From Natronomonas moolapensis 8.8.11 (GTDB lineage Archaea > Halobacteriota > Halobacteria > Halobacteriales > Haloarculaceae): DNA of 64,000 nucleotides. Location: positions 1,240,001-1,304,000 of the forward strand of contig NC_020388.1 in the NCBI RefSeq assembly GCF_000591055.1, written 5' to 3'. The notes under the pieces are model-generated. The model saw only the letters and a program-made list of their open reading frames with translations, was not told where the DNA came from and made no database searches. Made by a program: the position numbers and the translations under genes. Below are positions 44,790-64,000 of this stretch, piece by piece; the first letter of the stretch is position 1; each line of letters begins with the position of its first letter.

Positions 44790-45695
44790 ATGCTTCAGCG
44801 CCTCCGGGGACTCACACGGCGGCTCTACGAGCGCGTGCTCGAACGTGAGGTCGCCGGCGTGCCGGCACACGTCGCGGTGATCCAAGACGGAAACCGCCGG
44901 TACGCGCGCGAACACGGCGAGGAGACGACCGACGGGCACCGAGCGGGCGCGGACACGACCGAGCGCGTCCTCGAGTGGTGTGCCGACCTCGGCGTCGAGG
45001 AGTTGACCCTGTACGCCTTCTCGACGGAGAACTTCGAGCGCCCTCCCGAGGAGCGCGAAGCGCTGTTCGACCTCATCGCCGAGAAGCTCCGGACGTTCGC
45101 GGACCGCCCCGAAGTCCACGACCGCGGCGTCCGGATCCGGGCGATCGGAGAGACCGAACGCCTGCCACAGCGGGTCCGCGAGGCGGTCGCCTACGCCGAG
45201 GGACGCACCGACGACCACGACGCCTTCCGGTTGAACGTCGCACTAGCCTACGGCGGCCGCGCCGAACTGCTCGGCGTCGCCCGGGACGTCGCTCGCTCGG
45301 CGGCGGCGGGCGAGTGCGATCCGGGGGATGTGACCGTCGAGACGATCGAGGACCGCCTCACGACCGGACCGACGCGGGACGTCGATCTCATCATCCGGAC
45401 CGGCGGGGCCGAACGGACGTCAAATTTCCTGCCCTGGCACGCCAACGGCAACGAGGCCGCCGTCTACTTCTGTGCCCCGTACTGGCCGGAGTTCTCGCGG
45501 ATCGATTTCCTGCGGGCGATCCGGACCTACGAGTCGCGCCGGGAGTCGTGGCGAAAGAGCCGCGCCCAGCGGGCGGCGGCGCTGGTCCGGGCCGCCGGGG
45601 ACGACCTAGAGGGATCCGGCGGGGTCGCCGGGATACGATCCCTCGATCGGAGCGATCCCGAGGACTCGGGCGACCACGATGCGCCACTCGGGTGA
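44790..45695 (+). CDS. uppS: cis-Prenyltransferase (polyprenyl diphosphate synthase), catalytic-type subunit
   Basis: This 301-residue protein matches cis-prenyltransferases, which extend allylic diphosphates with isopentenyl diphosphate to make the dolichol-type lipid carrier. The catalytic P-loop AHVAVIQDGNRRYAR has Asp33-Gly-Asn-Arg. LTLYAFSTENFERP, ALAYGGRAEL, DLIIRTGGAERTSNFLPW and NEAAVYFCAPYWPEF are all present. The C-terminus departs from bacterial UppS: the R-R-F-G (RxG) motif is replaced by YESRRESWRKSR, and a tail of about 45 residues follows. A second paralogue that has the RxG but lacks the P-loop lies at 46918-47526. Confidence 0.93.
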   Translation: MLQRLRGLTRRLYERVLEREVAGVPAHVAVIQDGNRRYAREHGEETTDGHRAGADTTERVLEWCADLGVEELTLYAFSTENFERPPEEREALFDLIAEKLRTFADRPEVHDRGVRIRAIGETERLPQRVREAVAYAEGRTDDHDAFRLNVALAYGGRAELLGVARDVARSAAAGECDPGDVTVETIEDRLTTGPTRDVDLIIRTGGAERTSNFLPWHANGNEAAVYFCAPYWPEFSRIDFLRAIRTYESRRESWRKSRAQRAAALVRAAGDDLEGSGGVAGIRSLDRSDPEDSGDHDAPLG

Positions 45696-45738
45696 ACCGG
45701 CCGCCGATGTTGGCCAACGGTCGGCCGATATATGCGGA

Positions 45739-45748
45739 TTTTTATCGG
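45739..45748 (+). promoter_or_regulatory. TATA-like element of the UPF0104 gene
   Basis: A TTTTTATCGG run lies about 27-35 bases before the ATG at 45774. It favours that start over an ATG at 45732 that lies upstream of it. Confidence 0.4.
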
Positions 45749-45773
45749 TTGCGGACGGATGCAGCACCTACCG

Positions 45774-46754
45774 ATGCGGGACAAGGTGAAACCGTTACTC
45801 AGCCTAGTTGCGGCGGGCCTCGCGTTCGCGGGGATCGTCCTCTTTGTTGACCTGTCGGAGACGTTTGCGGTCGTCCGCGACTCGGATCGACGATACGTCT
45901 CCGTCCTGTTCGTCTCCATGACGGTCGCGACGCTCATGCGGGGGTACGTCTACGTTCGGTTGCTCTCACTCGTCGGGTTCGACGGCGGGCTACGCCGCGG
46001 GCTGTGGCTGTTTTTGGTGTATACGGTGTTCCGGTACACCCTGCCGTACGCTATGGCCGGCACGCAGACGGTGCTGGCGTATCTCTCCTCGCGAGACGAA
46101 CGCGTCGACGTAGAACACGCGTTCGGCGCGGTGTTGGTCGCCGACATTCTGGTGTACGTGCCGCACTTCACGCTGGGCGCCGTCGGCATCGCTGCCTATA
46201 GCGGCGCCGTACCGGACGGCACGCTCGTCTCGACCGGACTGCTCCTCGGAGGCCTCGTTGCGGTGCTGTGTCTCGGATACTACCAGCGCTGGATCGTCTA
46301 CCGGGCGTTCGAGCGCGTGACGGACCTCGCGAACGCCGTGTTGACCCGCGTCGGGGGGACCTCGACCGTCGGTGGGGCGTCGCGCGTGTCGTCGTTCTAC
46401 GAGTCGATCGACAGGATCTCCGCGAGCCGCCGGGCGACTGCGAGCGGGGTCGTGTTCGGACATCTTGGAATGGCCTTTTTGATGCTCCCGCTCACCGTCG
46501 CCGGATACGCGGTCGGCGTGACCATTCCGATCGAACTCGCGGCCGGCATCGTGATGACGACGAAGTTCTCTGGCGTTCTCCCCACACCGGGCGGAGTGGG
46601 CGGAATAGAGGCCATCATGATCGCGATGCTCGTCGGCGTCGGGGATATCGGGGGCGCGAGTGCCGCCGCCGTGACGCTTCTGTACCGGCTCTCGACGTAC
46701 TGGTATCTGCTTTTGCTCGGCGGGATCGCCGCGCTCCCGTTCGTACGGGGCTGA
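45774..46754 (+). CDS. UPF0104/LPG-synthase TM-region family membrane protein
   Basis: This 326-residue protein has about eight hydrophobic segments. It shows the UPF0104 pattern with RLLSLVGFDGGLRRGLWLFLVYTVFRYTLPYA near residue 60-90 and KFSGVLPTPGGVGGIEAIMI near 270-290. The P-x-P-G-G-x-G-x-x-E motif is the family signature. Members include the flippase domain of MprF and putative lipid-carrier transporters. Its place between two prenyltransferase genes suggests work on polyprenyl-phosphate lipids, by inference. It ends 22 bases before the first 52-bp repeat. Confidence 0.82.
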   Translation: MRDKVKPLLSLVAAGLAFAGIVLFVDLSETFAVVRDSDRRYVSVLFVSMTVATLMRGYVYVRLLSLVGFDGGLRRGLWLFLVYTVFRYTLPYAMAGTQTVLAYLSSRDERVDVEHAFGAVLVADILVYVPHFTLGAVGIAAYSGAVPDGTLVSTGLLLGGLVAVLCLGYYQRWIVYRAFERVTDLANAVLTRVGGTSTVGGASRVSSFYESIDRISASRRATASGVVFGHLGMAFLMLPLTVAGYAVGVTIPIELAAGIVMTTKFSGVLPTPGGVGGIEAIMIAMLVGVGDIGGASAAAVTLLYRLSTYWYLLLLGGIAALPFVRG

Positions 46755-46775
46755 GAACGGACTGTGCGCGAGTCC

Positions 46776-46931
46776 GGATGCCGACTCGCTTCGCTCGCCG
46801 CCCAGGGCTCGGCCTACCGGCCGAACCGGATGCCGACTCGCTTCGCTCGCCGCCCAGGGCTCGGCCTACCGGCCGAACCGGATGCCGACTCGCTTCGCTC
46901 GCCGCCCAGGGCTCGGCCTACCGGCCGAACC
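46776..46931. repeat. Three perfect tandem copies of a 52-bp unit
   Basis: The unit begins GGATGCCGACTCGCTTCGCT and ends GGCCTACCGGCCGAACC. Copies start at 46776, 46828 and 46880 with no mismatch. Each holds a hairpin TCGGCC-TACC-GGCCGA. The last copy overlaps the 3' end of the convergent prenyltransferase-like gene and encodes its final R-F-G-R and stop on the minus strand. The other two copies lie between the two convergent gene ends. It may act as a bidirectional terminator or be a recent slippage product. Confidence 0.95.
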
Positions 46932-47526
46932 GACGCTTTCGTTCCTGAAAATCGCGAACTGCGCGCAGGAAGTCGCGGCGTCTGAAGTCCCGCCAGTTGA
47001 CGTCGGTGAAGTACAACTCGGAGTACACCGACTGCCAGATGAGGAAATCCGAGAGCCGCTCGGCCCCGGTCTTGATCACCAGATCGGGCGGGGACTGAAA
47101 AACGAGCCGGCGTTCGATCTCGCTTTCGTCGATCTCGTCGGGATCGAGTCGTCCCTCGGCGGCGTCCGCCGCGATCCGCTGAACGGCGGACGCGAACTCC
47201 TGGCGACCGCCGAGGCCGATGCTCACCTGCACCGGGGCGTCGGCCACCAGTTCGGCACCCGGCTCGCGGATCGCGACCGGCCGAGGGGTTTCGAGACCGG
47301 ACAGCGCCGTCCGAAGCGTCGGGACCACGGCCTCGTCGAGGACGCTCACGTAGATCAACACCTCCTCGATGCCGACCTCGAACGCCCACCGGAGGAACGA
47401 CGAGAGCGTATCGTATGCACCCTGCTCGAGGAGGTCATGTTCGGTGGTGACCAAAGCGATCCGCCCCGGAACATCTTCCCCGCTCAACCGGATCCGGGCG
47501 GCGAGATAGCGGTCGTACAGGCCCAC
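46918..47526 (-). CDS. cis-Prenyltransferase-like protein lacking the catalytic loop (NgBR-like)
   Basis: This 202-residue protein has the C-terminal half of a cis-prenyltransferase: [37 protein letters not shown] and a last helix ending KRRFGR. The last part is the RxG motif of bacterial UppS and eukaryotic NgBR/Nus1. The N-terminal half keeps the fold ([21 protein letters not shown]) but has no D-G-N-x-R loop: the matching place reads [18 protein letters not shown]. It should not be active alone. Beside a catalytic paralogue that lacks RxG, it looks like the accessory chain of a heteromer. The start is a GTG at 47526, divergent from the DUF92 gene by 84 bases. Confidence 0.85.
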
Positions 47527-47609: not shown

Positions 47610-48938
47610 GTGACCGGGGACATCTCTCGCGCCGTCGGCTACCTCCTCGTCGGGAGTCTGGCGTTCGTCGCCCCGGTGCTCGAGGGGCGCGTCGACGACA
47701 CACTCGCCGCGGTCGGCACCGTTTCGCCCTTCGTCCTCCTCGCGACGATTGCACTCGCCTCGAAACGGGGACCGATGTTCGAGTTCTTCGCCCGCCACGG
47801 CGACCGGAAGGCCGAACGGCTCTACAGCCTCGCGTCGTTCGCACTCGCCGTCTGCGCGCTCGCGGTGCTTTTCGCCGCGCTGGATCTCCCACTGGCCGCG
47901 TTTGTCGCGTCGGTGTTCGTCCTGACCGCCGGCAACCTCGGCCAGCGACTCGCGGCGGCCCGCGTGCCCGCCCCCATCGTCGGCGCCGCCGCCTTCTGTG
48001 TGCTCGGGACGGCAGCCGGCGTCGCGGCGGTGTTCGTCGCTGGGGCACTCGGCGGCACCGTCCCCGCCCCCGAAACTGTCGTGTTCGTCACCGCCAGCGG
48101 CGCGATCGTCGGGGCGATCGTCAGGGCCACCCTCTCGCCGTTCGACGACACTTCCGTGCTGTTGTCGGTCGCGCTCGTCGTCTGGTTTCTGCTCGGGCTG
48201 GCCCCTGTCTCGGGGCCGACACCGGTCGCGGTCGGCCTCGCCGCTACGGTCGCGTTGGGCTATGCCGCCTACGCGCTCGGCACCGCCTCAACGAGCGGGA
48301 CGCTCAGCGGCGTACTGCTGTCGCTTTGGGCGGTCGTCCTCGGCGGCTACGGCTGGTTCGCCCTGCTCGTCACGTTCTTCGGGCTGGGCGGGCTGGCTTC
48401 GAAGTACCGATACGATGAAAAGCTCAAGCGGGGTATCGCCGAGGAGAACGAGGGGGCCCGGGACGGCAGCAACGTGCTGGCGAACTCCGCAGTCGCCCTC
48501 CTCGCCGTCGTCGCCTACGCCGCCTCCGGAACGCTCGGCGTCGACCCCCTCGTCTTCCAGTTCGTCTTCGCCGGCGCGGTCGCGGCGGCGCTGGCCGACA
48601 CGTTCTCGAGTGAGTTCGGCGGCCTCTTCGACTCCCCGCGGCTGGTCACGACGCTCGATCCCGTCCCCGCCGGAACCGACGGCGCCGTCACCTGGCAGGG
48701 CGCACTCGCCGGGGGGATCGGCGCCGGCCTCATCGCCACCCTCGCCGTCGGTTTCTTTGCATTCGGCCCCGCCGCGGCGCTCGTGGTTCTCGGAACGGGG
48801 TTCCTCGGGATGGTCGTCGACAGCGTCCTCGGGGCGACGCTGGAAGGCGGGCGGGTCGGCAACCAGAGCGTCAACCTGCTCGCGACGCTCTCGGCCGGCG
48901 TCGTCGCCGGCACCGTCGCCGTCGCCTCGTTCGTATGA
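47610..48938 (+). CDS. DUF92/TMEM19 family membrane protein
   Basis: This 442-residue protein has about 11-12 hydrophobic segments. The second half is the DUF92/TMEM19 domain: LGGLASKYRYDEKLKRGIAEENEGARDG (near 258-285), ADTFSSEFGGLFD (near 330) and GNQSVNLLATLSAG near the C-terminus. Plant VTE6 of this family phosphorylates phytyl phosphate. The first half (about 1-230) is extra membrane sequence and may be a fused dolichol-kinase-like part. Together with the prenyltransferase pair this suggests polyprenyl (pyro)phosphate metabolism, by inference. It starts with GTG and overlaps the next gene by four bases. Confidence 0.82.
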   Translation: MTGDISRAVGYLLVGSLAFVAPVLEGRVDDTLAAVGTVSPFVLLATIALASKRGPMFEFFARHGDRKAERLYSLASFALAVCALAVLFAALDLPLAAFVASVFVLTAGNLGQRLAAARVPAPIVGAAAFCVLGTAAGVAAVFVAGALGGTVPAPETVVFVTASGAIVGAIVRATLSPFDDTSVLLSVALVVWFLLGLAPVSGPTPVAVGLAATVALGYAAYALGTASTSGTLSGVLLSLWAVVLGGYGWFALLVTFFGLGGLASKYRYDEKLKRGIAEENEGARDGSNVLANSAVALLAVVAYAASGTLGVDPLVFQFVFAGAVAAALADTFSSEFGGLFDSPRLVTTLDPVPAGTDGAVTWQGALAGGIGAGLIATLAVGFFAFGPAAALVVLGTGFLGMVVDSVLGATLEGGRVGNQSVNLLATLSAGVVAGTVAVASFV

Positions 48939-62594: not shown

Positions 62595-64000
62595 ATGAGT
62601 CAGCGGTTCGAAGCGCTCGAAGAGCGACTCGCGGAGTACGAGTCGCAGATCGATTCCGTCTATCGTCTGTATCACATCCCCGTTCTCGTGGCCCTCATGG
62701 CGTTTATGCTGTGGGTTCGGGTACGCAACTACACGAACCACATCGGCCCGAGTGGCGAACCGCTCTACACCGGCAACGACGGGTACTACCACTACCGGTC
62801 CGTGAACTACGTGCTCGAGCACTACCCGTACACAATGCCGTTCGACCCCTGGACCGGGTTCGACGCCGGGAGACGGGCCGGGCAGTTCGGAACGATTTTC
62901 GATCAGGCGGTGGCGACGGCTGCGCTCGTCGTCGGACTCGGGTCGCCGTCCCAGGAGACGGTCGTCACGGTCACGCTGTTCGCCGCGCCGGTGATCGCGA
63001 CGCTGTGTGCGATTCCGATGTACTACGTGGGCACGCGACTCGGCGGTCGCTTCGGCGGTATCGTCGCCGTGGTCGTCCTCGCGTTGACGCCGGGGTCGTT
63101 CCTCACGCGGAGCGTCGCGGGGTCGTTCGACCACCAGATCGCCGAGGTGTTCTTCTCGCTCGTCGTCCTCGCGGTCGGCATGAAGCTCCTCGCCGTCGCC
63201 CAACGCGAGGCCCCGATCTACGAGTTCGTCCGGACGCGTGAGTTCGAGCTACTCCGTCGGCCGGTCGCGTGGGGGCTCGCTCTCGGCGTCGTGCTCACGT
63301 TGGCCGTGCTCAACTGGCCGCCAGCGATCTTCCTGTTCGGGCTGTTCGGGATTTTCCTCTTTTTTGCCCTCTCGCTCGAGTTCCTCCGGGGACACAGCCC
63401 GGACCACATCGCCATCCCCACGGTCGTCGCGATGGTGACGGCGGCGGTCCTGATCGTCCCCTTCCTGCAGACAACCGGGCTCCAGCCGACCGATTACTCG
63501 ATCGCACACCCCTTGCTCGCGACGGCCGTCGCCGCGGGGACGGCGTTCATGGCCGGGGTGGCCCGACTGTGGGAGCGACAGGAGCTGCCCCGAGCGGCGT
63601 ACCCGTTCGGCGTCGCCGGTGCCGGTCTCGTCGGGGCCGGCGTCCTCGCCGTTGTCTCGCCCGACACGCTCGGCTTCTTCCTCTCGCAACTCGAGCGCGT
63701 CGCCGGGCTCGGAACGACCGACACGGTCGCGACCATCGGCGAAGCGCAGGCTCCGAGGGATCCGCTCGGGCTCTTTTATCGGAACTACGGCCTCGGATTT
63801 TATACGGCGGTTCTGGGCGTGTTGCTCGTCGTGTATCGGGTCGTCTCGCGGACGCGGCCCCGGGCGGACTACCTGCTGATCGCGGTCTACGGGGCGCTCA
63901 TGCTCCTGTTCACCCTGACACAGAACCGCTTCGAGATCCACTTCGTGGTCGCGGTCGCCGCCGCAAACGCCTACGTCGTCGGCTGGATCTACCAGTTCGT
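62595..64000 (+). CDS. aglB: Oligosaccharyltransferase AglB (partial, 3' end outside window)
   Basis: The frame from ATG 62595 is open to the window edge (about 468 residues of a protein that is usually 800-1000). It has a cytoplasmic helix, then a membrane segment (LVALMAFMLWVRV). The first external loop has the GNDGYYHYRSVNYVLEHYP motif (metal-binding Asp). About ten more helices follow, with the second motif SFDHQIAEVFFSLVV and later TIGEAQAP (TIxE-like) and the RNYGLGFYT segment. AglB moves glycan from dolichol phosphate or diphosphate to Asn. It is missing the C-terminal WWDYG domain, which lies beyond the window. Confidence 0.9.
   Translation, partial: MSQRFEALEERLAEYESQIDSVYRLYHIPVLVALMAFMLWVRVRNYTNHIGPSGEPLYTGNDGYYHYRSVNYVLEHYPYTMPFDPWTGFDAGRRAGQFGTIFDQAVATAALVVGLGSPSQETVVTVTLFAAPVIATLCAIPMYYVGTRLGGRFGGIVAVVVLALTPGSFLTRSVAGSFDHQIAEVFFSLVVLAVGMKLLAVAQREAPIYEFVRTREFELLRRPVAWGLALGVVLTLAVLNWPPAIFLFGLFGIFLFFALSLEFLRGHSPDHIAIPTVVAMVTAAVLIVPFLQTTGLQPTDYSIAHPLLATAVAAGTAFMAGVARLWERQELPRAAYPFGVAGAGLVGAGVLAVVSPDTLGFFLSQLERVAGLGTTDTVATIGEAQAPRDPLGLFYRNYGLGFYTAVLGVLLVVYRVVSRTRPRADYLLIAVYGALMLLFTLTQNRFEIHFVVAVAAANAYVVGWIYQF

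Follow-up and report, generated by a model that had tools for sequence, protein, structure and literature searches.

Two co-conserved cis-prenyltransferase chains of Natronomonas moolapensis and other Halobacteriota as a probable heteromeric enzyme

We analyzed two cis-prenyltransferase genes in a 64,000-nucleotide stretch of the genome of Natronomonas moolapensis 8.8.11 (NC_020388.1, positions 1,240,001 to 1,304,000), hereafter the window. The two proteins very probably form an obligate heteromeric cis-prenyltransferase, in which the C-terminus of a partner chain completes the active site of the catalytic chain, and whose polyprenyl diphosphate product would be the compound from which the glycan carrier, dolichyl phosphate, is formed. 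A heteromer had been proposed in an initial annotation made from the sequence alone, and the proposal is now backed by the co-occurrence of the chains, the conservation of their complementary motif losses, purifying selection, and orthology to a pair of proteins from Methanosarcina mazei. Both genes lie where that annotation had placed them, and their translations and PF01255 matches agree. It had, though, left out the orientation of the second gene, which is encoded on the minus strand (the plus-strand translation of 46918-47526 is meaningless), so the pair is convergent and is not an operon.

Complementary motif loss in two co-occurring chains

The catalytic chain carries an IQDGNRRYA loop, and its C-terminal region reads YESRRESWRKS, with RRESW in place of the RxG motif. 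The partner, translated from the minus strand, has no D-G-N-R loop and ends in ERKRRFGR directly before the stop codon; the initial annotation had read the motifs of both chains in this way. Matches to PF01255 extend over profile positions 1-216 in the catalytic chain and over 117-219 only, the C-terminal half, in the partner. The partner also scores 95.7 bits against TIGR00055, below the 109.6-bit cut-off that the catalytic chain clears. We propose a function for a protein that family models rate as only a partial UppS.

The complementary split is fixed across the phylum Halobacteriota and is not a product of chance. We aligned 123 catalytic chains and 117 partners from the phylum with E. coli UppS (NC_000913), which supplies the numbering. 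Every catalytic chain has residues D26, G27, N28, R30, S71, R77, R194, R200 and S202, and none has RxG (123/123). All 117 partners have lost the catalytic loop and the equivalents of N28, R77 and H43, and all have R239, R241, G244, Y211 and E213. The partner C-terminus is R-x-G followed by exactly one residue in 116 of the 117, and K-F-G plus one residue in the other; the N-terminal half holds just two invariant residues. The human DHDDS substrate-binding residues D34, R37, R38, R85, R205, R211 and S213 are all matched in the catalytic chain of the window (D33, R36, R37, R84, R203, R209 and S211, respectively).

The chains also occur together. A family search of the closed 2.9-Mb genome returned just these two PF01255 proteins, and no second complete UppS, with both loop and RxG, was found in it. 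Of 194 Halobacteria genomes searched, representing 65 genera, 193 encode two or more PF01255 proteins, the exception being a 120-contig draft with the partner alone, and the partner is present in all 194 (E 1.7e-36 or better). The C-terminal half of the catalytic chain scores E 1e-12 to 1e-20 in the partner search, well apart from true partners. Pairwise ratios of nonsynonymous to synonymous substitution rates (dN/dS) within genera are 0.09-0.16 for the partner and 0.14-0.23 for the catalytic gene. Decay of the partner, which the initial annotation had thought less likely, is excluded by these low values, and with the universality of the gene we reject it.

A wider profile search with the haloarchaeal partner covered 148 genomes sampled across Halobacteriota. 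Clear partners (E 1e-29 or better) were found in 137 of these, and three further genomes encode divergent, shorter partners that still end in RRFG plus one residue. The profile had no match in five genomes of one family (f17) or in one incomplete genome. A PF01255 search of two of those five and of the incomplete genome found no cis-prenyltransferase; that is, both chains are missing together.

Relation to a Methanosarcina mazei pair and proposed mechanism

According to one report (PMC8131916), M. mazei encodes MM_0014 plus a pair of paralogues, MM_0618 and MM_1083. The report states, citing Emi et al. 2019, that the two paralogues form a heteromeric enzyme with C45-50 products, and names this product as the likely source of the glycosyl carrier lipid of M. 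mazei. On sequence grounds, and by elimination, the window pair is tied to a CHARACTERISED enzyme, its chains being apparent orthologues of that heteromer. Among 31 Methanosarcina genomes, the partner is encoded in all 31 and the catalytic chain in 30 (the exception is 60% complete), while 12-13 have a third, shorter cis-prenyltransferase. In genome G344 this third enzyme is identical to MM_0014 (PDB 7caq) save for one internal residue near the end, start codon aside, and we therefore take G344 to be M. mazei. Its other cis-prenyltransferases are exactly two, one of them catalytic and devoid of RxG, the other a partner with the C-terminus QRRYGK; they are the orthologues of the window pair and should then be MM_0618 and MM_1083. 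Gene spacing and locus numbers suggest that the catalytic chain is MM_0618 and the partner MM_1083.

In a phylogenetic tree, the window and M. mazei chains fall in the same two clades, one each. They share the motif split, with identities of 46% over 261 residues for the catalytic chain and 43% over 200 for the partner. M. mazei differs in that the two genes lie ~0.55 Mb apart, whereas the haloarchaeal genes are mostly tail-to-tail neighbors, and in carrying the third enzyme. MM_0014, a homodimeric C- and O-prenylating enzyme, is of the same superfamily and sometimes shares a genome with the pair, but it lies outside the pair, with an IPDGNRRW loop, a DITLGG end and a separate long branch in the tree (Shimodaira–Hasegawa-like approximate likelihood ratio test [SH-aLRT] 100).

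The initial annotation knew of no description of such a heteromer in haloarchaea. The principle of an archaeal heteromeric cis-prenyltransferase is already known from M. mazei, as reported in PMC8131916, and what may be new is the haloarchaeal extension and the phylum-wide, motif-level picture. A literature search, thin on subscription journals, returned no account of the haloarchaeal pair or of its phylum-wide fixation at the motif level.

We infer for the haloarchaeal chains the same complex as for the M. mazei pair, and likewise its geometry. The catalytic chain would bind Mg2+ and the allylic diphosphate through D26, N28, R29/R30 and R77, and the phosphates of isopentenyl diphosphate through R194, R200 and S202 (E. 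coli numbering), and would house sites S1 and S2 along with the elongation tunnel. The partner, without a diphosphate-binding loop, would pair through the common dimer face and insert its C-terminal R-x-G-x-COOH into the site of the catalytic chain in trans, by analogy with the two chains of the UppS homodimer and with NgBR and DHDDS. Human NgBR ends R290-L291-G292-K293, one residue after RxG; the backbone of G292 and L291 binds the S2 phosphate, and the carboxylate of the C-terminal K293 contacts R37 and R85 of DHDDS (PMC7573591). Each archaeal heterodimer would have one working site, and its product would be a medium-length polyprenyl diphosphate, to be dephosphorylated and reduced to dolichyl phosphate for glycosylation. 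AglB had been named as the user of this carrier, and an STT3/AglB-type gene does begin at 62595, truncated by the window end. It lies 15 kb from the pair, a distance that by itself proves no link; AglB would presumably use the product of the pair.

Comparison with DHDDS/NgBR, origin and alternative readings

The parallel with the eukaryotic DHDDS/NgBR complex, drawn in the initial annotation, holds as a likeness of mechanism, and it is well supported that the partner works like NgBR. Human DHDDS, as in yeast Rer2/Nus1 and plant Lew1-type complexes, is a catalytic chain with DGNRR, a C-terminal extension and no RxG, and NgBR is a pseudo-enzyme chain without the loop that ends in R-x-G plus one residue. 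AlphaFold2 models of the window chains have a mean predicted local distance difference test score (pLDDT) of 79 for the catalytic chain and 86 for the partner. Against DHDDS and UppS the catalytic model scores Z 26-28; it has a helix at 237-273, and residues 275-301 (pLDDT <50) are predicted to be disordered. The partner model matches cis-prenyltransferases at Z 13-15 and is missing some elements of the catalytic fold after the second strand, and NgBR is likewise poorer in helices and strands than DHDDS (PMC7573591). NgBR carries a membrane segment at its N-terminus and resembles the partner little in sequence; the partner itself begins with a short polar helix that passes at once into the first strand, with no transmembrane segment of the NgBR type. 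The products differ as well, the eukaryotic complex making C85-100 chains and the M. mazei relative C45-50.

Common descent with NgBR, by contrast with likeness of mechanism, is not shown, as the partner profile is far nearer to UppS (E 1e-29) than to NUS1 (E 2.5e-6). Were the partner a true orthologue of NgBR/Nus1, and the eukaryotic split derived from the archaeal one, only the origin of the pair would be affected, and the function favored here would stand. The logic of loss is the same, the C-terminus lies one residue past RxG as in the RLGK of NgBR, and NUS1 aligns over the whole partner (profile 15-202; structure 7pay_B over residues 1-202, Z 13.8, root-mean-square deviation 4.4, 178 aligned). 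We nevertheless regard such orthology as unlikely, in view of the closeness to UppS, a structural match that is tied among NgBR, UppS and DHDDS, and the single complete enzymes read in archaea of a sister phylum.

In that sister phylum we searched 60 Thermoplasmatota genomes and read 20 of the proteins. Matches were found in 55 of the 60, mostly to a single full-length protein, and all 20 enzymes read combine an IMDGNRR loop with a terminal RxG plus one residue on the same chain. Seven further archaeal UppS that we read also hold loop and terminal motif on one chain (K-R-Y-G-K in one). Homodimeric UppS (E. coli, Thermoplasmatota, other archaea) shares fold and reaction with the pair, and archaeal UppS its C-terminus one residue after RxG, but has both features on one chain and one gene instead of two. 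Given that loop and RxG are united in each of the sister-phylum enzymes read, the pair has the look of a subfunctionalized duplication. The simplest history, as it looks from the sequences, is that a complete UppS, from which both archaeal chains would derive, was duplicated at or before the base of Halobacteriota, with complementary loss afterwards. In the tree, built without eukaryotic sequences, the partners form one clade (SH-aLRT 99) and the catalytic chains another (SH-aLRT 93); the tree does not fix the sequence in which they and the complete enzymes branched. We put at about even the broader claim that all Halobacteriota (haloarchaea, Methanosarcinia, Methanomicrobia, Archaeoglobi and others) depend on an obligate two-chain enzyme that arose once, by complementary loss from a single-chain archaeal UppS and independently of the DHDDS/NgBR split. 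If true, the same broken-symmetry enzyme would have been invented in parallel in archaea and eukaryotes, and the pair would be a counter-example to the rule that heteromeric cis-prenyltransferases make long chains. The intact single-chain enzymes of sister archaea represent the ancestral state from which the evolution of a probable obligate heteromer could be followed. Five Thermoplasmatota genomes encode two full-length cis-prenyltransferases each, one of which matches the profile only to position 215-218 of 219 and is perhaps without RxG; these genomes possibly represent intermediates or parallel splits.

Several observations weigh against an obligate heteromer. The genes are convergent and, in a linkage sample of 75 Halobacteria genomes over 63 genera, lie far apart in 15, so co-transcription is not the rule. 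Fold searches with the partner (Foldseek, VIA-align) tie NgBR, UppS and DHDDS, with no nearest one. Yeast Nus1 has no canonical RxG, a motif not strictly needed in every cis-prenyltransferase (PMC7573591), and MM_0014 ends in ITLGG, also without it; the absence of RxG is therefore, by itself, no proof that the catalytic chain is inactive alone. That chain could instead suffice by itself as a homodimer, in the manner of UppS or, weakly, of DHDDS without NgBR, with the partner a dispensable allosteric or membrane-recruiting helper. MM_0014 does act as a homodimer, and DHDDS alone does have low activity. We judge this reading very unlikely, with RxG lost from every catalytic chain aligned and kept, R or K first and exactly one residue after it, in every partner, with the partner in every Halobacteria genome searched, and with the M. 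mazei orthologues reported as a heteromeric enzyme (PMC8131916). Hardly credible at all is a reading of separate enzymes or a decaying duplicate, with the partner acting outside the active site, for example as a polyprenyl-phosphate carrier or regulator. In its favor, the partner diverges strongly over its N-terminal half, a profile of which retrieved neither a cis-prenyltransferase nor a NUS1 chain from the PDB (best E 0.47, to an unrelated entry), and a DUF92 membrane protein is the partner's constant neighbor. Against it, the partner is most conserved at the residues whose UppS and NgBR counterparts extend across the dimer, its dN/dS is low, the PF01255-searched f17 genomes are without both chains together, and the M. 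mazei pair is reported as a single heteromeric enzyme.

The obligate heteromer would correct the likely view of two redundant UppS genes in haloarchaea. It would also name the enzyme expected to provide N-glycosylation in Haloferax, the leading genetic model among archaea, with its dolichyl-phosphate carrier. Assays there that take in the catalytic chain gene alone are expected to fail. The heteromer yields a concrete prediction that is readily tested in an archaeon open to genetic work. Being small, soluble and free of membrane segments, the two chains would also make a tractable model for the activation of DHDDS by NgBR.

Gene neighborhood and further observations

Coordinates of the pair, its motifs and its neighbors are given in Table 1.

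Table 1. The two cis-prenyltransferase genes of the window, their motifs and adjoining genes (window positions).
Feature	Positions	Strand	Remarks
Catalytic subunit gene (putative), cis-prenyltransferase, 301 aa	44790..45695	+	PF01255 E=8e-69; TIGR00055 uppS 234 bits
Catalytic loop I-Q-D-G-N-R-R, residues 31-37	44880..44900	+	D33 corresponds to E. coli D26 and DHDDS D34
RRESW in place of RxG	45537..45551	+	RxG missing in all orthologous chains aligned
C-terminal extension of catalytic chain	45552..45692	+	AlphaFold2: initial part prolongs last helix
Flippase-like membrane protein, between the two subunit genes	45732..46754	+	TIGR00374/PF03706
Partner (non-catalytic) subunit gene (putative), 202 aa, GTG start	46918..47526	-	PF01255 C-terminal half E=3e-29
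C-terminal R-F-G (RxG) of partner, then one residue and stop	46924..46932	-	Translation
Degenerate loop of partner, residues 24-33	47428..47457	-	Family consensus tERDLL
DUF92 membrane protein (PF01940, TIGR00297), head-to-head with partner gene	47610..48938	+	Pfam match

The catalytic and partner genes of the window are separated by 1.2 kb, a gap that holds one flippase-like gene. This gene is at most a candidate part of the cis-prenyltransferase system, and its protein had no match at the other haloarchaeal loci searched. Operon logic for the pair is rejected on account of the opposite strands. In the linkage sample, where linked means within 10 kb, the two genes are linked in 60 of the 75 genomes, and all 60 linked pairs are tail-to-tail; outside Halobacteria the pair is linked in 16 sampled genomes and convergent in all 16. 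In some methanogens and relatives the convergent frames overlap at their 3' ends (locus L264, 2816-2836; L267, 3235-3282; L275, 3222-3228).

The common haloarchaeal gene order is DUF5778< CAT> <PAR DUF92> (GNAT>) <DnaG, with CAT and PAR the catalytic and partner genes. Where a locus holds both genes, the DUF92 gene adjoins the partner in 62 of 64 cases, and at partner-only loci in 11 of 18; DUF92/TIGR00297 stands head-to-head with the partner in 73 of 82 partner-bearing haloarchaeal loci. Because PF01940 also takes in the plant phytyl-phosphate kinase VTE6, the DUF92 protein is a candidate for polyprenyl-phosphate metabolism.

Six haloarchaeal genomes have an extra catalytic-type chain and a single partner. 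The extra paralogues are rejected as complete UppS in the four genomes whose sequences were read, where they likewise have no RxG. One partner may be common to two catalytic chains, by analogy with yeast Nus1, which serves Rer2 and Srt1. In one draft genome the partner gene is split between two frames (locus L191, 2396-2995 and 2475-2972) with DUF92 adjoining, a frameshift or an assembly error.

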